Source: Fischerella sp. PCC 9431 (GTDB taxonomy: Bacteria > Cyanobacteriota > Cyanobacteriia > Cyanobacteriales > Nostocaceae). Taken from it: DNA of 64,000 bases. Of the stretch, positions 39,826 to 49,890 are shown piece by piece (within the stretch, counting starts at the first letter, position 1; the number at the start of each line of letters is the position of its first letter). The notes below the pieces were generated by a model. It saw nothing but the letters and a program-made list of their open reading frames with translations, was not told the origin of the DNA and searched no databases. The position numbers and the translations under genes were made by a program. The stretch spans positions 4,230,282 to 4,294,281 of the forward strand of contig NZ_KE650771.1 of the NCBI RefSeq assembly GCF_000447295.1. The letters run 5' to 3'.

Positions 39826-41421
39826 TTATGCTGTCCGAAAACGCGCCAGTTCTTCGCCTGTTTTGGCGTCATGGGCGTGAACTGTACACACTAAACAAGA
39901 ATCAAATGATCGGGCGACATGACCTACTTCTATAGGGTCAGCTGGATCAGCGATCGGTGTACCCATTAAAGCTTCCTCAATGGGGCCAAGCTTTTGTTCG
40001 GCGTCACGGGGGCCAATGTTCCAAGTACTAGGGGCGATGACTTGATAGTTCTTGATTTTGCCATCTTCTAGTTCTACCCAGTGACACAGGGAACCCCGCG
40101 CTGCTTCTGTTGCACCCCAACCGCGCCCATCTTTTTGTTTGGGTTTGATGTACCAAGGTTCATTTAATTTGAATTCGCGCAAACAGCGTTCGGCTTGGCG
40201 ATACAACTTGACAATTTCGTGAACCCGTGCTAACTGACGAAGATGAACGCTGGGGCCGCCCATGCGTTTGAAAACATCAAGGATAAATCCATCATAATGT
40301 TGCCAAGATTCGCCGTGTGTACCACCTGCGACCAATTGTCTGGCTAAGGGGCCAGCTTCTAACCGTCCATATTCGGTGTGACGGACTGCACTTGACCAGG
40401 AATAAGCGCCGTTGAAGTCTTTCTGATTTTTGGCAATAGGGTTAGTGGTGCGATCGAAGGGGTGAAAATCTTCTGTTCCTTCTTCGTACCAAGAGTGAGT
40501 TGTATTCTCACGGGCAAAGGTATGATCCATCAAGGTGTGAGTGTCGCTGTAACTGTCGTACACTCCACTTTTCATGATCATGGCAGCATTACGGCTTTCG
40601 ATAGTCGGTTTTTGGTATTTATCTTCATGGGGTAAATATCCCCAAGTGACGTATTTACCTACACCAGCACCAAATTTATCTAAACCGATATCTAAACCCA
40701 TGCGCCAATAAAAACCCAAATCGGACTGGCGATGGTTACGGTTTTCATGCAACCAAGCCATAAAGTCATCATAGGTCTGGATTTCTTCGTAGCGTTCCAA
40801 GGAACAACCCAACCACACAGGTTCTAGCCAATTGGTGCGGAAGTATTCTAGGATTGACCAGGCACGGGTAATATCGGTGAGGGTGGGGGCGCACATGACG
40901 CCACCAGGAACCATATAACTAGAATGGGGCCATTGACCACCCAAAAGAGCATAAATTTCTACTGGTTTCGCAGAAATTGTCACACCGATTTCGTAATGCT
41001 TACCAGTAAAGGCAGCAAAACGGCGGACTGCTTCGCCATAGTAACGGCTATTTTGATATTTTTTATTGGTGAGGTCGATCGCAAATAAACCGTAAAAATA
41101 GCGGGGTATACTTTGAATTGTTTCGACGATTTGACCAAGATTTCTAGCTAAAATCGCATTACGTGGAACTTCGGTTTCCCAGGCGGTATCCAATGCCCAA
41201 GATGCACAGGTGAGGTGAGAACCACCGCAAATTCCACAGATGCGGGGCGTGACAATTAACCCGGCTTGGGGGTCTTTGCCACGTAGAATCACTTCAAATC
41301 CTCGGAAGAGTTCGGCGTGAGTCCAGGCGTTGACTACTTGTCCATCTTCGATTTCCACCCGCACATCTAAATCGCCTTCGACCCTCCCCACGGGTGAGAT
41401 GTCTAATATTTGAGTTCCCAT
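39826..41421 (-). CDS. hupL: uptake [NiFe]-hydrogenase large subunit
   Basis: 531 residues from the ATG at 41421, preceded by AAAGGACAAATC; an upstream in-frame ATG (41445) lies in repeat DNA. It carries the Ni-Fe active site that oxidises H2 released by nitrogenase. Seen: RICGICGGSH (L1) near residue 60 and, near the end, DSCLVCTVHAHD (L2) followed by a tail ending ARFRTA that is removed after nickel insertion. The gene is uninterrupted: an AGTTATATGG word at 40911-40926 (opposite strand) matches the recombination site used by the hupL excision element in Anabaena. The processing protease gene hupW is not in this window. Confidence 0.96.
   Translation of the reverse strand: MGTQILDISPVGRVEGDLDVRVEIEDGQVVNAWTHAELFRGFEVILRGKDPQAGLIVTPRICGICGGSHLTCASWALDTAWETEVPRNAILARNLGQIVETIQSIPRYFYGLFAIDLTNKKYQNSRYYGEAVRRFAAFTGKHYEIGVTISAKPVEIYALLGGQWPHSSYMVPGGVMCAPTLTDITRAWSILEYFRTNWLEPVWLGCSLERYEEIQTYDDFMAWLHENRNHRQSDLGFYWRMGLDIGLDKFGAGVGKYVTWGYLPHEDKYQKPTIESRNAAMIMKSGVYDSYSDTHTLMDHTFARENTTHSWYEEGTEDFHPFDRTTNPIAKNQKDFNGAYSWSSAVRHTEYGRLEAGPLARQLVAGGTHGESWQHYDGFILDVFKRMGGPSVHLRQLARVHEIVKLYRQAERCLREFKLNEPWYIKPKQKDGRGWGATEAARGSLCHWVELEDGKIKNYQVIAPSTWNIGPRDAEQKLGPIEEALMGTPIADPADPIEVGHVARSFDSCLVCTVHAHDAKTGEELARFRTA
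40911..40926 (-). other. empty hupL-element attachment-like site
   Basis: On the minus strand CATTCTAGTTATATGG. The Anabaena hupL element recombines at a 16-bp repeat that I recall as CACAGCAGTTATATGG; ten terminal bases agree, in the same codon context (SYM). Confidence 0.45.
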
Positions 41422-41447
41422 GATTTGTCCTTTGTCATTGGTCATTG

Positions 41448-41613: not shown

Positions 41614-42576
41614 CTAAACTAAGAAAAAGTCTTCATCTGCCCAAGCTGGGGCGGTGTCTTTAGCGACTATGGTCAGTAAAGCATAGTCTTTTTGTTTGAC
41701 TCCTGGTGGTAATTCTTTGGGAACTCCCATGACAGTTTGAGTTTTAAATACGGTTCCCGGTTTAAGGTCAAAGAAGGGAAATTCTGGTTCGGTACAACCC
41801 AAACAAGGCATTCCCGCACGGGTTTTGGAAGAAACGCGGTTCCACAAGATGCGGTTACAGGAAGAATGGGTCATGGGGCCACGACAACCTAAGTCGTAGA
41901 ACAGACAACCTTTACGTTGACCAAATTCAGCAGTGCTTGCTTTATACGCAAAGTGAATATTGCGGGTACAACCGGTTTGAGTGAAGGTTTTGAAGAAAGT
42001 TTGAGGACGATGGAATTCGTCAAGGGTAATATCGCCAATTCTACCAGTGGCGATCGCCACTAATATCTGCGTTATCCAATCGGGGTGGGCGGGACATCCA
42101 GGAATATTAATTACAGGTACTCCGGCTTTGGAACGGTAATCTGCACCTAAAAAACCACCTTTTTGGCGTTTAAGAAATTGTAAACCTTTAGATTCACTGG
42201 GGTTAGGTTCCATAGCCGGAATTCCACCCCAAGTCGCGCAATCGCCCACCGCTACCACATACTTAGCGACTTTTGCGAGATCGCTAACCCAATTTTTCAT
42301 CGGCCGATGGGCAAAGCGATTCCATTCTCCCGTACCATTGGGGGCATTAACTACACTACCTTCAAATACCAAGATATCTACAGGGATTTTACCTAAAACG
42401 CAATTCCATAGCATCCCTTGCAGATGGTCTCCTAGTTCTTGTCCCAAGGAAGGATGCCATAGTACGTTAATACCAAAGTCGGAAATTAAGTCACAAACAG
42501 TTGGTTCTTCTGCGTTTAAAAATGACATGGTGTTGCCCGAACAAGCACCACCTTGTAGCCATAATACGTTAGTCAT
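41614..42576 (-). CDS. hupS: uptake [NiFe]-hydrogenase small subunit
   Basis: A 320-residue Fe-S electron-transfer subunit partnering HupL. Seen: WLQGGACSGNTMSF at residues 6-19, where the usual CxxC proximal-cluster pair is C12 and N15; VGDCATWGG near 112; PGCPAHPDW near 160; and C-terminal cysteine groups CLFYDLGCRGP and CLGCTEPEFPF. No Tat signal peptide, as is normal for the cyanobacterial enzyme. The spacing to hupL is 192 bases. Transcription starts in the 829-bp gap shared with the hyp series. Confidence 0.96.
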   Translation of the reverse strand: MTNVLWLQGGACSGNTMSFLNAEEPTVCDLISDFGINVLWHPSLGQELGDHLQGMLWNCVLGKIPVDILVFEGSVVNAPNGTGEWNRFAHRPMKNWVSDLAKVAKYVVAVGDCATWGGIPAMEPNPSESKGLQFLKRQKGGFLGADYRSKAGVPVINIPGCPAHPDWITQILVAIATGRIGDITLDEFHRPQTFFKTFTQTGCTRNIHFAYKASTAEFGQRKGCLFYDLGCRGPMTHSSCNRILWNRVSSKTRAGMPCLGCTEPEFPFFDLKPGTVFKTQTVMGVPKELPPGVKQKDYALLTIVAKDTAPAWADEDFFLV

Positions 42577-43405: not shown

Positions 43406-44356
43406 ATGACTCCAACTATTAGCGATACCGCAGTCAAAGCAGCAATTGCTGCGATTAATTCTGAATCCGCATCCACAAAAGATAAAATTGAGATGCTGAT
43501 TGAGATGGCACATGGTTTTGTGAAAAAGCCAAAAACTACTCAAGATTTGTGGAATGCGATCGCACTATATCAAGAAGCAGAAAATTTATGTAATGATGAT
43601 GACTTTTTGCTAAAAGCGCGAGCGAAAATAGGAAAAGCTGGAGCGCTAAGATCAATACCGAGTGAGACAGAAGAATTTTTGTTGCAAGCGCAAGTTTTGT
43701 ACACAGAAGCATTACCTGTTTTACAAGAATTCGCCTCACCAGAAGAACTTGCAGAAGCTCAAATGAACTATGGCTTGGTGCTACAGTCTTTAGTACCATT
43801 TAACTTGGTAAGAATTGGAGATAGCATTCAGGTATATCAAGATGCTTTGCGAGTATTTACATGGGAAAAATACCCGCAGGAATATGCAATTTTACATAAT
43901 AATATTGCGATCGCTTACCTTTCTATGTCAGGAGGTTCGCAACAGCAATATTTATTTGAAGGATTGGCGGTACAAACTTTTGAAGCTGCACTGAAACACA
44001 TTCATCTTATCGATCATCCCAGAGAATATGCGATGTTGCAGAATAATTTGGGTAATGCGCTGCAATATTTACCATCATCTCATCCTTTGGATAACTTGAT
44101 ACGAGCGATCGCAGCTTATGATGAAGCCTTAAAAGTGCGTAATTCCAAAGATACACCAATAGAATACGCTAACACTATTGCCAACAAAGCCAATGCTTTA
44201 TTAAACTTACCTGATGACTTAAACCAACCAGAAATCGGTAATCATCAAAATCTGAACCAAGCGCGTCATTACTATCAACAAGCTTGGGAAATTTTTACTC
44301 AGTATGGATATCGAGAACAAGCAGAAGTAGTAGCCCAACTTTTGGAAGAATTATGA
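43406..44356 (+). CDS. TPR-like repeat protein of the extended hyp operon
   Basis: A 316-residue, all-helical protein with several tetratricopeptide-like units (AIALYQEAENL, YTEALPVLQEF, AYLSMSGG, NNLGNALQYL, AIAAYDEALKVRNS, ARHYYQQAWEIF). Such repeats bind partner proteins. A similar gene lies between hup and hyp in Nostoc. It starts the rightward series and is 33 bases from the next gene; assembly of the hydrogenase small subunit is a reasonable guess. Confidence 0.82.
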   Translation: MTPTISDTAVKAAIAAINSESASTKDKIEMLIEMAHGFVKKPKTTQDLWNAIALYQEAENLCNDDDFLLKARAKIGKAGALRSIPSETEEFLLQAQVLYTEALPVLQEFASPEELAEAQMNYGLVLQSLVPFNLVRIGDSIQVYQDALRVFTWEKYPQEYAILHNNIAIAYLSMSGGSQQQYLFEGLAVQTFEAALKHIHLIDHPREYAMLQNNLGNALQYLPSSHPLDNLIRAIAAYDEALKVRNSKDTPIEYANTIANKANALLNLPDDLNQPEIGNHQNLNQARHYYQQAWEIFTQYGYREQAEVVAQLLEEL

Positions 44357-44389
44357 ATTATTAATCATGAATAATAAGGAGAATCAATC

Positions 44390-44629
44390 ATGACAGATAT
44401 ACTTACAACTTTAGCATCTGGTGATGTGAACTTATTCACAGGATTAATATGGTTACTAATAGCAACTGGATTCTCTGTAATCGGCGGTGCAATTGGTGGC
44501 ATACTTTTAGCCGGAGAAGAATTAGGTTATAAATTTGCTGCCACAATTGGTGGATTATTCGCCCCTGCTGGTGTCATTCCAGCCATGTTATTAGGATTAT
44601 TATTACTAAATTTTTGTCCAAAATTTTAG
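44390..44629 (+). CDS. small membrane protein
   Basis: 79 residues with hydrophobic segments at about 17-40 and 50-75 (GLIWLLIATGFSVIGGAIGG, then PAGVIPAMLLGLLLL). AAGGAGAATC before the ATG is a good ribosome site. No named family. Likely an inner-membrane protein co-expressed with the hyp genes. Confidence 0.72.
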   Translation: MTDILTTLASGDVNLFTGLIWLLIATGFSVIGGAIGGILLAGEELGYKFAATIGGLFAPAGVIPAMLLGLLLLNFCPKF

Positions 44630-44637
44630 GAGGTTAT

Positions 44638-44862
44638 ATGTTAGAAATCGGCTGGTTTTCTGCTAAGTTATTTTTTAAGAATAAATTAATCCGTGATCCT
44701 AAATATTTTTGGCAACAAACCGCTATTGGTTCTAGCGTTGGTTTACTTTTATTAATTGTGCCATTATTTTTGCACTTTCCGTTGTGGTTAACAATAATCG
44801 CTTCTAGCATCACAACAGGTACTATTATGCCTTTCTTACTTCAAGATTTCCGCATGAAGTAA
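44638..44862 (+). CDS. second small membrane protein
   Basis: 74 residues. The start is the ATG at 44638 because AGGAGG lies six bases before it; an upstream TTG frame overlaps the previous gene and is unlikely. One or two hydrophobic stretches (SSVGLLLLIVPLFL, then LWLTIIASSIT) and charged ends. It follows the preceding small gene by 8 bases, so the two are probably made together and could form a membrane pair. Confidence 0.72.
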   Translation: MLEIGWFSAKLFFKNKLIRDPKYFWQQTAIGSSVGLLLLIVPLFLHFPLWLTIIASSITTGTIMPFLLQDFRMK

Positions 44863-45416
44863 AGACACAAAATTTCATGTCTCTAGTATTAATTCTTTCA
44901 TTCTATTCATTCTAGACATAAATCGCCCTGAACTAAAGTTCACCGGCTAATAGTTGAAGTCCCTTAATATGGACTAAATTACTAATCAACAGTCGGTTTT
45001 AACCGAGTTTTGCTATTAGCCTCAGAATTAATTCTGAGGCGGGCTGGATGAGAATGAAATAGTCCTGAGATTTTTATCGTATCTCTACACAATCAATACG
45101 GTTCGTTTAATAATTTTTTCGTCATGATTTGGAAATGTAGAGACGTTGCACTGCAACTTCTCTACAGGGTTTAAATGTTCGTATACTGATATCTTACACC
45201 AACCCCATATCCCGCCTCAGAATTAATTCTGAGGCTAATAGCATAAGTCCGTTAAAACGGACTCAAACACCCTCCTAGTCAAATTTATCTGACTTTAGCT
45301 AAAAGCCCTTGAAATTTATTTATTGGCGGTATATGGGGTTGATGCAAGATATGAATATATTTATATTATCCAAACCGTATTATCTACAAAATTATTATTT
45401 ACACCATCACCAACTA
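44863..45416. repeat. intergenic inverted repeats within the hyp series
   Basis: GCCTCAGAATTAATTCTGAGGC occurs at 45018-45040 and again at 45208-45230, each joined to a TAATAGC or GCTATTAG word, in opposite orientation; CAGTCGGTTTTAACCGAG and GTCCGTTAAAACGGAC are further palindromes. A family B copy lies at 45137-45165. Confidence 0.75.
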
Positions 45417-45893
45417 ATGACTAATCTGGAAGAATTAGTACAAGAAATTAGCCGTTTTGAAGCCATAATTTCCGATTGGGAAGAAAGCCACAGATGTGTA
45501 GCAGTAGGATTAAAACGCGCCATTGAGGACTTACATAAAGAAGCGCTAACCCGCTTAATTAAAAGTGTGAAACAAGAATCAATCTCAGCCTTACGTAATG
45601 CTGTGCAAGATGAAGTAGTTTACGGCGTACTGCTTTATCATGAACTAGTCAAATCACCGATACCACCTTTACAACAACGTATTCAACAAGCTTTAGAAGA
45701 AGTTCGTCCTGGTTTAAAAAGCCATAATGGAGATGTTGAATTAGTAGCAATCAAAGCACCGGATGCAGTAGAAGTAAGATTAATCGGTACTTGTAGTAAT
45801 TGTCCAGCTTCGACACTCACTTTATCTCAAGGAATTGAACAAACAATTAAAATATATTGTCCAGAAATCAATCATGTGATTGCGGTAAGTTAA
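45417..45893 (+). CDS. NifU-domain Fe-S scaffold-like protein
   Basis: 158 residues from the ATG at 45417 (MTNLEELVQEISRFE); the open frame upstream (from 45309) gives Tyr/His-rich noise. Residues about 1-70 form a helical N-terminal part; residues about 85-158 form a NifU C-terminal domain with SHNGDVELVAI and CSNCPASTLTL, whose CxxC can hold a transient Fe-S cluster. Its place beside hyp genes suggests delivery of clusters to HupS. No NifU N-terminal domain is present. Confidence 0.85.
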   Translation: MTNLEELVQEISRFEAIISDWEESHRCVAVGLKRAIEDLHKEALTRLIKSVKQESISALRNAVQDEVVYGVLLYHELVKSPIPPLQQRIQQALEEVRPGLKSHNGDVELVAIKAPDAVEVRLIGTCSNCPASTLTLSQGIEQTIKIYCPEINHVIAVS

Positions 45894-46013
45894 TTATGTT
45901 AGTGGTTAATGGATAACTTGTAGAAACGCGATTTATCGCGTCTTTATCAAGGATATGTTGCAATCATTAATTGAATTAGTATTAGTGGTTATTTGTTATT
46001 TATTGGTTTTTAA

Positions 46014-47189
46014 ATGAATTTTGCATCAGCATTACATAATGACAATTTACCATTATCACCTAATGGTGCTGAGGTAATTTTAGGTAAAATCATGCAACCA
46101 GAGGAATTAGCAACTCCTCTTGCACCCAGCGCCATTGAAATGTTCGGGCCTCGTGCAGCTTGTCTAATATCAGAAAATGGGCCTTTGTGGGTTGCAGATA
46201 CGGGACATCATCGTTTATTAGGATGGAAAAATTTACCAACTCAAGATAGTCAACCTGCTGACTGGGTAATTGGACAACCAGACTTTAATTGTGAAGGACA
46301 AAATGCTAAAGGTACACCAGGAAAGACGACTTTGAGTGTACCAACTGGAATTTGTCGCTGTGGTGCAGGAATGGCGATCGCAGATGCATGGAATCACCGC
46401 ATTTTGATTTGGAAAAAAGTACCAGAAGACAGCAATGTCCCAGCAGATTTAGTTTTAGGACAAGTAAATTTTACTGAGAACAAACCAAACCAAGGTAAGC
46501 AAGAAGCAGCAGCAAATTTTCTCAATTGGTGTTATGGGGTTTTCTATCACCAAGGAAGATTATTTGTAGCTGATACAGGTAATCGCCGGGTGTTAGTTTG
46601 GAATCAACTTCCAGAAGAAAATAATCAACCAGCAGATTTAGTTTTGGGACAACCGGATATGACATCACGTAACGAAAATGGTGGTGGTAGTCCTTCTGCT
46701 TCTAGTATGCGTTGGTGTCACGATATTACCTTTTGGGGAGAGAATCTAGTGGTCACAGATGCGGGTAATAATCGTGTGATGATTTGGGAAAAAATGCCTA
46801 CAGAAAATAATACTCCTTGTGCGCTAGTTTTAGGACAGAAAAATTTTGATGTTGTTGAAATTAATCAAGGAGTCTATTTTCCAAACGCCAGTAGTTTAAG
46901 TATGCCTTATGGAGTCGATGCTGTTGATGATTGGTTGTTAGTAGCCGATACTGCTAATTCTCGGTTATTGGGTTGGCAAAAGCCTGAGTCTATTTTATCT
47001 TTACAAGGATCTGCGGCTGATGCGATCGCAGGACAAAATAACTTTACCAGCAAAGGAGAAAACCGCGATTTTGGACAACCAAAGCGAGATAGTTTGAATT
47101 GGTGTTATGGAATTAAAGTTGTTGGGAACACAGCAATAATTGCGGACTCTGGAAATAACCGAATTTTACTGTGGAAAATACATAAATAA
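46014..47189 (+). CDS. NHL-repeat protein of the extended hyp operon
   Basis: A 391-residue beta-propeller protein. Repeated units of about 60 residues show the pattern VADTGHHRLLGW, IADAWNHRILIW, VADTGNRRVLVW, VTDAGNNRVMIW, VADTANSRLLGW and IADSGNNRILLW, six blades in all, each followed by a PADLVLGQ-type stretch. No signal peptide. NHL proteins act as interaction platforms. A homologue is found next to hypF in Nostoc, and a role in small-subunit maturation has been suggested. Confidence 0.88.
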   Translation: MNFASALHNDNLPLSPNGAEVILGKIMQPEELATPLAPSAIEMFGPRAACLISENGPLWVADTGHHRLLGWKNLPTQDSQPADWVIGQPDFNCEGQNAKGTPGKTTLSVPTGICRCGAGMAIADAWNHRILIWKKVPEDSNVPADLVLGQVNFTENKPNQGKQEAAANFLNWCYGVFYHQGRLFVADTGNRRVLVWNQLPEENNQPADLVLGQPDMTSRNENGGGSPSASSMRWCHDITFWGENLVVTDAGNNRVMIWEKMPTENNTPCALVLGQKNFDVVEINQGVYFPNASSLSMPYGVDAVDDWLLVADTANSRLLGWQKPESILSLQGSAADAIAGQNNFTSKGENRDFGQPKRDSLNWCYGIKVVGNTAIIADSGNNRILLWKIHK

Positions 47190-47313: not shown

Positions 47314-49890
47314 ATGACTACTGAAGAAATAAGGGTACGTGGTACTGTTCAAGGGGTAGGATTCCGCCCGACTGTATATCGATTAGCAAAAGCTTGTGGA
47401 TTACGTGGTGATGTTTGTAATGATGGTGAAGGCGTTTTAATTCGTGCTTCTGGAACTGATGCATCGATAGCAGAATTTATCAACAGATTACAACAAGAAT
47501 GTCCACCTCTGGCAAGAATTAATCAACTCACACGCAAGCGTTATGCAACAGAAATTGTATTTGATGATTTCGTAATTTCTCACAGTATTAATAGTAATGT
47601 AAAAACAGAAATTGCTCCTGATGCTGCTACTTGTCCTCAATGCCAAGCCGAAATTTTTGATTTTTATAGTCGCTGGTATCGTTATCCTTTCACAAATTGT
47701 ACCCATTGCGGCCCCCGCCTGAGTATTATTCGTGCCATTCCTTATGACCGTTGCAACACCAGTATGGCAGCTTTCCCTATGTGTGCAGAGTGTGCCAAAG
47801 AATATAATGATGTTGAAAATCGTCGCTTTCATGCCCAACCTGTAGCTTGTCATGTCTGCGGCCCAAAAGCAACTTTAGAACGTGCTGACGGTAAACCAAT
47901 TACAGCTTCGATGTTTTCCATGTTGGATGATGTTGATGCTGTGTGTACTTTATTGCAGAGAGGCGAAATTGTCGCCATAAAAGGTATAGGCGGAATTCAT
48001 CTTGCTTGCGACGCGACAAATGAAACTGCTGTAAAAAAACTCCGCCAGCGCAAACAACGTTATCACAAACCCTTTGCTTTAATGGCGCGGGATTTAGAAA
48101 TCATTGAGAAATACTGCACCATCAGCGACAAAGAAAGAGAATTACTGCAAAGTCCCGTCGCACCGATTGTATTGTTGCAGGTGAAGAGACTGGGGGAAGA
48201 CAAACAGACACGAGGACACGGAGACGCGGGGATATTTTCTTCTGTGCGTCCCCACGTCTCAAATTCTCCGCGTCCCTGCGTCTCAAGTTCTCCGTATCCC
48301 CGCGTCTCAAGTTCTCCGTATCCCCACGTCTCAAATTCTCCGCGTCCCCGCGTCTCAAATTCTCCGCGTCTTCTTCCCATCTCCCCTGCTGTTGCTCCCG
48401 AACAAAATACTCTGGGTTTCATGCTACCTTACACACCTTTGCATCACTTAATTCTCAAGCGCATGAACCGCCCAATTGTGTTAACTAGCGGTAATATTTC
48501 TGATGAACCACAATGTATAGATAACGATGAAGCGCGAGAAAAACTCAGTCAGATTGCTGATTATTTTCTTTTACATAATCGAGAAATTGTTAACCGTGTA
48601 GATGATTCGGTGGTGCGGGTAGTTGGTAATCAAATACAAACTATTCGTCGCGCTAGGGGATACGCACCAGCAGCGATTAAATTACCACCCGGATTTGAGC
48701 AAACACCAGCAATTTTAGCGATGGGTGGTGAGTTAAAAAATACCTTTTGTTTATTAAAGGATGGACAAGCAATTTTATCTCAACATTTAGGAGATTTAGA
48801 AAATGCAGCCACCTTTACAGCCTATCAAAATACGCTCAACTTATATTTAAATTTATTCGAGCATCAACCAGAAGCGATTCTCTCAAAAGAGAGACGCTAC
48901 GCGATGGTGCAAAGCACCCGCCTTACGGCGATCGCACTCGACAAACACCCTGAATATCTATCTACAAAACTCGGTAAAGAACTAGCATCAGCCAATCAAA
49001 TTCCGATTTATTCTACCCAACATCATCACGCTCATATTGCTGCTTGCATGGCTGAAAATAATCTTCCTCTGGATTCATCACCTGTATTAGGTATCGCCTT
49101 AGACGGTTTAGGTTACGGTGAAGATAATACACTTTGGGGTGGTGAATTTCTCTTAGCAAATTACTGTGATTTTCAAAGATTAGCAACTTTTAAACCAGTA
49201 GCCATGATCGGTGGTGAACAAGCTATATACCAACCTTGGCGTAACACTTACGCTCAATTAATCTCAGCCTTTACCTGGGAAGAAATTGCAAGTAAATATG
49301 GTGATTTAGAAATCATTAAATTCCTGGAAAATAAGCCCCTAAAACTTCTCAATCAACTAGTATCAAAAAATATCAATTCTCCCTTAGCTTCCTCCGTGGG
49401 GCGCTTATTTGATGCCGTAGCTGCTGCTATCGGTATATGCCGAGAATCATGTAATTATGAAGGACAAGCAGCAATCGAAATGGAAGCTTTAGTTGATGGT
49501 AATAACTTAAATAATCATGAAGACAAACTAAAATATCCTTTTAAAATTCATATTTTAGATAATATTTACTGTATAGACTCAAGCTTAATGTGGAAAGCCT
49601 TATTAAATGACCTACAACAACAAACTGATCTAAAAGTCATAGCTACAAAATTTCACATAGGTTTAGCTCAAGCTATAGTCAACATGGTTAATTACCTATC
49701 TCAACAACATGATATTAAGACCGTAGTTTTAAGCGGAGGAGTATTTCAAAACCGTATTCTACTAGAACAAGTGACTAATTACCTTAAAACCTCAGATATT
49801 AACATACTGACTCATAGCCTAACTCCCTGTAACGACGGTGGATTATCACTAGGTCAAGCAATGATCGCAGCAGCTAATATCATCAAATAA
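47314..49890 (+). CDS. hypF: carbamoyltransferase HypF with two repeat-derived insertions
   Basis: An 858-residue HypF, which forms the cyanide ligands of the Fe atom from carbamoyl phosphate with HypE. Domains in order: acylphosphatase (RVRGTVQGVGFRPTVYRLA split near 7-26), two zinc fingers (CPQC...CTHC, CAEC...CHVC, about 108-182), YrdC-like (about 205-400), and Kae1-like (HHHAHIAACM near 570). Longer than the usual 750-780: a tract near residues 293-353 holds five 8-residue units of type VSNSPRPR, and about 20 residues near 521-540 (SKERRYAMVQS) come from a dispersed repeat. Neither breaks the frame. Confidence 0.95.
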   Translation: MTTEEIRVRGTVQGVGFRPTVYRLAKACGLRGDVCNDGEGVLIRASGTDASIAEFINRLQQECPPLARINQLTRKRYATEIVFDDFVISHSINSNVKTEIAPDAATCPQCQAEIFDFYSRWYRYPFTNCTHCGPRLSIIRAIPYDRCNTSMAAFPMCAECAKEYNDVENRRFHAQPVACHVCGPKATLERADGKPITASMFSMLDDVDAVCTLLQRGEIVAIKGIGGIHLACDATNETAVKKLRQRKQRYHKPFALMARDLEIIEKYCTISDKERELLQSPVAPIVLLQVKRLGEDKQTRGHGDAGIFSSVRPHVSNSPRPCVSSSPYPRVSSSPYPHVSNSPRPRVSNSPRLLPISPAVAPEQNTLGFMLPYTPLHHLILKRMNRPIVLTSGNISDEPQCIDNDEAREKLSQIADYFLLHNREIVNRVDDSVVRVVGNQIQTIRRARGYAPAAIKLPPGFEQTPAILAMGGELKNTFCLLKDGQAILSQHLGDLENAATFTAYQNTLNLYLNLFEHQPEAILSKERRYAMVQSTRLTAIALDKHPEYLSTKLGKELASANQIPIYSTQHHHAHIAACMAENNLPLDSSPVLGIALDGLGYGEDNTLWGGEFLLANYCDFQRLATFKPVAMIGGEQAIYQPWRNTYAQLISAFTWEEIASKYGDLEIIKFLENKPLKLLNQLVSKNINSPLASSVGRLFDAVAAAIGICRESCNYEGQAAIEMEALVDGNNLNNHEDKLKYPFKIHILDNIYCIDSSLMWKALLNDLQQQTDLKVIATKFHIGLAQAIVNMVNYLSQQHDIKTVVLSGGVFQNRILLEQVTNYLKTSDINILTHSLTPCNDGGLSLGQAMIAAANIIK
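48255..48373. repeat. 24-bp tandem array inside hypF
   Basis: Five units of CGTCTCAAATTCTCCGCGTC plus a 4-base end (48255, 48279, 48303, 48327, 48351). 24 is divisible by three, so the frame is kept, giving an 8-residue repeat. Confidence 0.9.
48874..48935. repeat. dispersed repeat bounded by a HIP1 half-site inside hypF
   Basis: Begins GCGATTCTCTCAAAAGAG, includes GACGCTACGCGATGG and ends with GCGATCGC. The same family lies at 22566-22645. It adds about 20 codons between residues that normally read EAI and A. Confidence 0.75.

Follow-up and report, generated by a model that had tools for sequence, protein, structure and literature searches.

Introduction

A row of five genes that lies divergently from hupSL, the structural genes of a group-2a uptake hydrogenase, and ahead of hypF was described in Nostoc sp. 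PCC 7120 in 2008 (asr0689 to alr0693) and in N. punctiforme in 2011 (Npun_R0367 to Npun_R0363); the two papers report that it can be cotranscribed with hyp genes and that its transcripts increase after nitrogen depletion, alongside hupS and nifD, and they propose a role in maturation of the small subunit (PMC2408588, PMC3126725). Here we analysed the corresponding row in a 64,000-nt stretch of Fischerella sp. PCC 9431 (contig NZ_KE650771.1, positions 4,230,282 to 4,294,281; the whole stretch is called the window below). It encodes a tetratricopeptide repeat (TPR)-like protein, two small membrane proteins that we named MP1 and MP2, a NifU-like protein and an NHL-repeat protein. An earlier note on this DNA had correctly stated the cotranscription of a similar Nostoc set and the small-subunit proposal, and the idea of HupS maturation is not new, having been published in 2008 and 2011. 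From comparisons at the sequence level, the MP1/MP2 pair emerged as a probable candidate for the missing membrane or quinone subunit of HupSL.

HupSL is described as membrane-bound without transmembrane (TM) domains, a third, membrane-embedded subunit being one possibility (PMC6616624), and its membrane attachment and electron hand-over to quinones are described as an open question (PMC6616624, PMC6883350). In the Huc hydrogenase of Mycobacterium smegmatis, HucM forms a membrane stalk that is the proposed menaquinone route to the enzyme; Huc lacking HucM keeps its activity but fails to oligomerise (PMC10017518). The formate:menadione activity of formate dehydrogenase requires ForE, which like HucM is a subunit of the DUF1641 type (PMC8808070). 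In several phyla, NHL-repeat proteins and HucE have been noted as neighbours of group-2a hydrogenases (PMC7784904), HucE-type proteins have been noted in Cyanobacteria (PMC6883350), and a table for Parageobacillus places a run of TPR, hypothetical, NifU and NHL genes next to the huc genes (PMC12976888). The hupGHIJ genes of Rhizobium leguminosarum likewise sit between structural and hyp genes and have a proposed role in small-subunit maturation; according to the 2008 paper, cyanobacterial genomes hold no orthologues of them (PMC2408588). In the open-access literature we found neither a mutant of asr0689, asr0690, alr0691 or alr0693 nor a proposal of these genes' products as a membrane subunit.

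The module in Fischerella sp. PCC 9431

The window comes from a cyanobacterial genome of 7.17 Mb, and its HupS shares 99% identity with the Fischerella muscicola SAG 1427-1 protein. The five open reading frames (ORFs) ahead of hypF that the earlier note had reported are real, with the coordinates it gave, and together with hypF they lie on the plus strand, divergent from hupSL on the minus strand:

39826 to 41445, minus strand: hupL, large subunit of a group-2a-type [NiFe] hydrogenase, 539 aa (HupL profile match)
41614 to 42576, minus strand: hupS, small subunit, 320 aa (phmmer 1.6e-159 to the Huc small subunit 7uur_D)
43406 to 44356, plus strand: TPR-like protein of the alr0691 / Npun_R0367 type, 316 aa
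44390 to 44629, plus strand: MP1, asr0689-family protein with two hydrophobic segments, 79 aa (NCBIfam NF052670)
44638 to 44862, plus strand: MP2, asr0690-type predicted membrane hairpin with basic termini, 74 aa (AlphaFold2 model, charge distribution)
44945 to 45266, no strand: palindromic repeat element with 53-nt arms (92% complementary), downstream of MP2 and upstream of the NifU-like gene
45417 to 45893, plus strand: NifU-like protein, HucE type without Rieske domain, 158 aa (Pfam NifU, alignment)
46014 to 47189, plus strand: NHL propeller protein, six blades in the model, 391 aa (Pfam NHL, AlphaFold2 model)
47314 to 49890, plus strand: hypF, carbamoyltransferase of [NiFe]-site assembly (HypF profile)

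The five families and their position relative to hupSL and hypF are those of the two Nostoc operons, and the gene order is that of N. punctiforme, with the TPR gene first. The locus differs from the Nostoc operons in the missing Rieske domain of the NifU-like protein and in the palindromic element that parts the NifU-like gene from MP2. This element contains a 22-nt palindrome in two exact copies, with no further copy elsewhere in the window at up to two mismatches. The length of MP2 is counted from its ATG (the listed ORF starts at a TTG, position 44614), and no TM segment was detected in the window HupS by hydropathy.

MP1 and MP2 accompany hupS

HupS matches were obtained in 31 of 214 cyanobacterial genomes, 30 of them at ≥80% identity; the match in G007 (43% identity) is another hydrogenase and was left out of the hupS-positive set. 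MP1 was present in all 30 hupS-positive and in none of the 184 hupS-negative genomes, MP2 showed the same 30/30 versus 0/184 distribution in the same genomes, and the two genes were adjacent in every case. The NHL gene (E ≤ 1e-20) was found in 28 of the 30, being absent from G046 and G168, and again in none of the 184. At the same cut-off the TPR profile, which reaches TPR-like stretches in other proteins, matched 56 of the 214 genomes: 28 strongly (E ≤ 1e-120), all hupS-positive, with a broken copy in G141, whereas the remaining 27 genomes, all hupS-negative, gave partial matches only (1.4e-34 or weaker), taken as generic TPR proteins. The link to hupS that the earlier note had proposed to survey is thus borne out, and MP1, MP2 and the NHL gene are not widespread in Cyanobacteria without hupSL.

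A second, order-level sample of 147 cyanobacterial genomes, which shares genomes with the first, contained HupS in 17 genomes from eight families and MP1 in all 17. Among its 130 hupS-negative genomes there was one borderline MP1 match (3.6e-4, within a 564-aa frame), which we took as chance; a match like it appears as a second MP1 match in G284. Since four families (f5, f6, f10 and f44) each hold both hupS-positive, MP1-positive and hupS-negative, MP1-negative members, the concordance does not stem from a single clade.

The module is not confined to Nostoc-like diazotrophs but goes with group-2a hydrogenases in several phyla. We compared 120 loci, made up of 80 species-genome stretches (the best 80 of at least 581 confirmed in a scan with a HupS profile, a choice that leans to the consensus probe), 30 cyanobacterial regions, nine plasmid regions and the window, and scored 13 gene families at each; several loci end at a contig edge or at the 10-kb flank, at least one genome is included twice (L041, L134), and L070 (HupS 43% identical) is not group 2a. 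The order TPR-MP1-MP2-NifU-NHL-hypF, uninterrupted among the 13 searched families, occurred in 57 of the 120 loci, 35 of which are non-cyanobacterial (22 cyanobacterial, 31 Pseudomonadota, 2 Nitrospirota, 1 Myxococcota and 1 Bosea metagenome-assembled genome, MAG). In a plasmid collection, 17 of 124 HupS-matching records lay at 60-80% identity, and all 17 carry an NHL relative, which was matched in only one record beyond them; TPR matches fell on 17 records, namely 14 of the 17 hup plasmids and three with CHAT/TPR proteins. The nine plasmid loci that were inspected come from Alphaproteobacteria, Thermus, Sulfobacillus, Mycobacterium and Bacteroidota. By tblastn, MP2 was found on eight plasmid records, every one a group-2a hup plasmid, with poor sensitivity, as the hup plasmids of Sphingopyxis, Novosphingobium, Octadecabacter and Roseovarius were missed; L032 and L039 carry MP2.

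The conserved order also suits a different explanation, in which all five genes, including MP1 and MP2, constitute one assembly module and the pair tethers the assembly of HupS or HupSL to the membrane. Without the tether this is the view of the 2008 authors (PMC2408588), and besides the 57 ordered loci it can draw on transcripts that, in two Nostoc strains, also cover hyp genes (PMC2408588, PMC3126725) and on the loss of hydrogenase activity in HucE-less strains in both assays used (PMC6883350). We regard it as possible but rather doubtful, mainly in view of where the pair persists and where it is missing.

Retention of the pair where other module genes are lost

In five genomes (G046, G137, G141, G168 and G177) the MP pair lies at least 100 kb from hupS on the same contig, with both frames open. 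The NifU-like gene is broken in both G177 and G141, the latter having a broken TPR gene as well, whereas G046 has a TPR remnant of 50 aa, and neither the NHL nor a HucE-type NifU protein was found there; hupS, hupL, MP1 and MP2 are open in all three. The gene content of G046 resembles that published for Cylindrospermopsis CS-505, which is reported to have kept hupSL, hupW and the asr0689 homologue and to have no alr0692 or alr0693 (PMC2821919). The dN/dS values between G141 and G177, rough for genes this short, were 0.261 for MP1 and 0.134 for MP2, compared with 0.05 for HupS and 0.08 for HupL, and a similarly rough value of 0.135 was obtained for MP2 between G046 and G022. Within the module, no other proteins accompany hupSL as faithfully as MP1 and MP2.

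Purifying selection on the pair where the TPR and NifU-like genes are broken, or where NHL and HucE-type genes were not found, argues against a single assembly module. Because the pair is kept where TPR, NifU-like or NHL genes have been lost, a structural or electron-transfer partner of HupSL appears favoured over an assembly tether, the function that the earlier note had suggested for the two membrane proteins and that now seems less likely. The same genomes bear on whether the genes play no part in H2 uptake and are simply passengers of a mobile or ancestral cluster that contains hupSL. Most copies are indeed linked to hup or hyp genes, but the pair has been kept in five genomes in which at least 100 kb separate it from hupS and is carried by no hupS-negative genome, leaving simple hitchhiking the least probable of the explanations considered here.

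MP1/MP2 and HucM do not occur together in the loci compared

Among the 120 loci, MP1 and MP2 occur in 84 and HucM in seven, and no locus has both. The seven HucM-type loci, which lack the MP pair and encode a DUF1641 protein close to hupS and hypA, are those of a Mycobacterium intracellulare plasmid (L035), Thermus (L033), Sulfobacillus (L034) and four more Bacillota loci (L100, L109, L133 and L141); in the mycobacterial case the DUF1641 protein is HucM itself (phmmer 2.9e-34 to 7uus_Q). Both locus types share group-2a-type HupSL, a membrane-related partner, and the TPR and NifU-like genes (seven of seven HucM-type loci) with the NHL gene in six of seven; they differ in the HucM gene near hupS and in the absence of MP1 and MP2 from the HucM-type loci. 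There, the TPR-like, NifU-like and NHL proteins therefore work without the pair, a second observation that is at odds with one joint assembly module, and, being common to both types, the three fit group-2a assembly factors.

The complementarity extends to whole genomes. In 20 genomes with a pair-less locus, searched genome-wide with MP1 only, MP1 was found in 11 (three more genomes served as positive controls) and not found in nine, which are the four HucM genomes, G313 and G314 (loci L106 and L121) and the MAGs of L091, L118 and L136. DUF1641 was present in all four HucM genomes and absent from all 24 non-HucM genomes tested (19 with MP1, 5 without). It was detected in 3 of the 214 cyanobacterial genomes, none of them hupS-positive, and thus in 0 of the 30 hupS-positive ones, including the window's own genome (G000, 0 matches).

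Properties of MP1 and MP2

MP1 matched NCBIfam NF052670 (asr0689_fam) at 3.8e-32 and 110.2 bits, above the curated cut-off of 95 bits. It has hydrophobic segments at residues 22-40 and 55-73 by hydropathy and is rich in Gly, with G33 and G54 invariant across 25 alignment rows. The AlphaFold2 model of MP2 (mean pLDDT 90.5) consists of a short N-terminal helix (residues 2-13) followed by a helical hairpin (21-44 and 49-67). Neither protein has a Pfam family and MP2 has no NCBIfam family, so that the description of both as essentially undescribed holds for MP2 but not for MP1, which belongs to a named family. Over the 25 rows, the mean number of Lys and Arg residues in MP2 is 4.4 at the N-terminus, 2.6 at the C-terminus and 0.4 in the loop. 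Membrane proteins follow the positive-inside rule, with basic ends on the cytoplasmic side, and both ends of MP2 are therefore predicted to be cytoplasmic, on the side of HupSL. No C-terminal fusion of MP1 and MP2 was seen: 85 MP1 and 85 MP2 matches stop near the family end, in a check that covers the C-terminal side with ORFs trimmed to the nearest start. We also considered MP1 and MP2 as relatives of HucM and rejected this, as they have no Pfam match (DUF1641 is in Pfam), their own genome has no DUF1641, and the size differs.

Two small hydrophobic proteins might instead form a metal or ion transporter that brings nickel or iron to the hydrogenase, and the 2008 paper guessed at ABC-transporter relatives (PMC2408588). 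This fits poorly with the lack of a Pfam family and with the conserved side chains, since the sole metal-binding residue at MP1/MP2 positions of ≥70% conservation is an MP2 Asp (D70, 77-80%; D20 reaches 72% in one alignment). Hox hydrogenases, which need nickel too, are present in many hupS-negative cyanobacteria, yet the pair is missing from every sampled hupS-negative genome, and we consider a transporter very improbable.

The TPR-like, NifU-like and NHL proteins

The best Pfam match of the TPR-like protein (TPR-S, 0.049) is under the cut-off; its relatives are annotated as tetratricopeptide proteins. For the NifU-like protein, the listed ORF of 194 aa starts at a TTG, but relatives align from the ATG at 45417 (MTNLEEL..), which is therefore most likely the start and gives 158 aa. 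The protein contains a NifU domain (Pfam 3.5e-23) with a CxxC motif, within the CSNCPAS stretch that had been noted before. It resembles HucE of M. smegmatis in the HucE-type N-terminal region and the NifU domain and differs in that the chain stops after the latter, with no C-terminal Rieske domain (CxH..CxxC); truncated HucE forms are on record (PMC6883350). The NHL protein has NHL repeats (Pfam 6.8e-17) and a confident AlphaFold2 model (mean pLDDT 93.0), whose best PDB matches by Foldseek are generic NHL propellers of other proteins and give no functional lead. Pfam thus backs the NifU and NHL labels of the earlier note, and a strand count in the model agrees with its six blades.

Neither amperometry nor zymography is reported to have revealed hydrogenase activity in mycobacterial strains without HucE or HhyE, and the loss of HucE was not remedied by a dye; the authors favour electron transfer and leave an assembly role open (PMC6883350). 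Because HucE-less strains were inactive in both assays, a maturation role for the NifU-like protein would fit by analogy with this homologue. An electron-acceptor role was considered and set aside for the window protein: it lacks the Rieske domain and the dye does not rescue HucE loss, and assembly is therefore the better fit. The HucE-type protein is the least conserved member of the module, intact in 24 of 38 hupS-positive cyanobacteria (MP1 in 38 of 38). In 20 the match extends across the Rieske region, and in four, the window included, it ends short of that region; the protein is broken or a fragment in four (G040, G085, G141 and G177) and was not found in ten, nor in the genomes of L108, L111 and L112, some of these being drafts. 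For the module as a whole, the maturation interpretation is partly supported, with HupS, HupL or the whole complex as its possible target.

Discussion

The chances seem to us evenly balanced that the five genes form an accessory module of the group-2a uptake hydrogenase with two jobs. The TPR-like, NifU-like and NHL proteins would be group-2a-specific assembly factors that work beside the Hyp proteins. MP1 and MP2 would make up one small membrane unit that binds the soluble HupSL dimer and holds it at the cytoplasmic membrane face, shapes a quinone site beside the distal Fe-S cluster of HupS and passes HupSL electrons to the quinone pool, taking by analogy the slot that HucM has in mycobacterial Huc. 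The more specific proposal, that the pair is the postulated third subunit of HupSL, a haem- and metal-free two-protein gateway to plastoquinone (to other quinones elsewhere) that replaces the HucM stalk across the group-2a branch of Cyanobacteriota, Pseudomonadota, Nitrospirota and Myxococcota, is tentative and falls somewhat short of even odds.

Several observations weigh against this division of labour. MP1 and MP2 are mostly found inside the TPR-NifU-NHL-hyp cluster, a setting that also suits assembly, and we found no interaction data for them. Neither has a conserved His or Cys and thus no obvious haem or metal site, so that electrons would go from HupS directly to quinone, and Foldseek returned no significant fold match for the MP2 model. 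The assembly part has to accommodate the absence of HucE-type genes from several hupS-positive cyanobacteria. The split between MP and HucM types corresponds to one change on the HupS tree, a single evolutionary contrast, and few Cyanobacteria have DUF1641 in any case. Two genomes with hupSL, those of L106 (Rhodospirillaceae) and L121 (Steroidobacter), have neither MP1 nor DUF1641 genome-wide; the same holds for the possibly incomplete MAGs of L091, L118 and L136. Neither MP nor HucM genes are seen at L036 and L037 (Bacteroidota, plasmid records only), whose plus strand also encodes no small membrane protein of comparable kind.

L106 and L121 form a two-member clade (98 SH-aLRT) that keeps the TPR, NifU-like, NHL and hypF genes and seems a promising group in which to seek a third way of coupling.

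New here are the gene order across phyla, the concordance of MP1 and MP2 with hupS, the complementary occurrence of MP and HucM types, and the split of the module into two roles. If MP1 and MP2 do the coupling, the HupSL question becomes testable through two genes of about 75 codons, group-2a hydrogenases would use at least two unrelated solutions for quinone coupling, the HucM stalk and the MP pair, and H2 production would gain a clean means of separating H2 uptake from respiration in heterocysts.

Further observations at group-2a loci

The hupS gene of G085 appears split, with a fragment matching residues 1-23 (C3:589930-589998) next to TPR-MP1-MP2 and residues 16-320 about 104 kb away (C3:485038-485952; L069, L177), which looks like an interruption by a DNA element of the type that is known to interrupt hupS and hupL and to be excised in heterocysts. 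Short or split hupL frames (177-378 aa) beside full-length hupS occur in L054, L056, L058, L060 and L064; that of L056 may be cut by the contig end, and the others may hold a hupL-interrupting element. In the genome G068 (L043), hupSL is present twice, about 6.6 kb apart, and each copy is accompanied by a TPR-MP1-MP2 set of its own.

Downstream of hupL, Pseudomonadota and Nitrospirota loci encode small Cys-containing proteins (X12; e.g. L032 11790-12499), often in two copies and with a C-terminus like CRLWRI. The X12 profile matched 51 of the 120 loci, and the two proteins tested had no convincing Pfam family; they are possible Fe-S or electron-transfer partners. A protein of about 100 aa downstream of hupW (X3; L032 12976-13287, L036 16103-16414, L037 13195-13500) matched in 57 of the 120 loci, including Bacteroidota and some HucM-type loci. 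The sole cyanobacterial locus with X12 or X3 is L098 (Cyanobacteria bacterium SZAS-4), which carries both together with HupW, unlike other cyanobacterial loci, and whose HupS groups with proteobacterial sequences; grouping and gene content together suggest that this locus was gained by horizontal transfer.

In the window, hypF contains a 24-nt tandem repeat of 5.2 copies (48246-48370) that leaves the frame open and adds a Ser/Pro-rich stretch to the protein.

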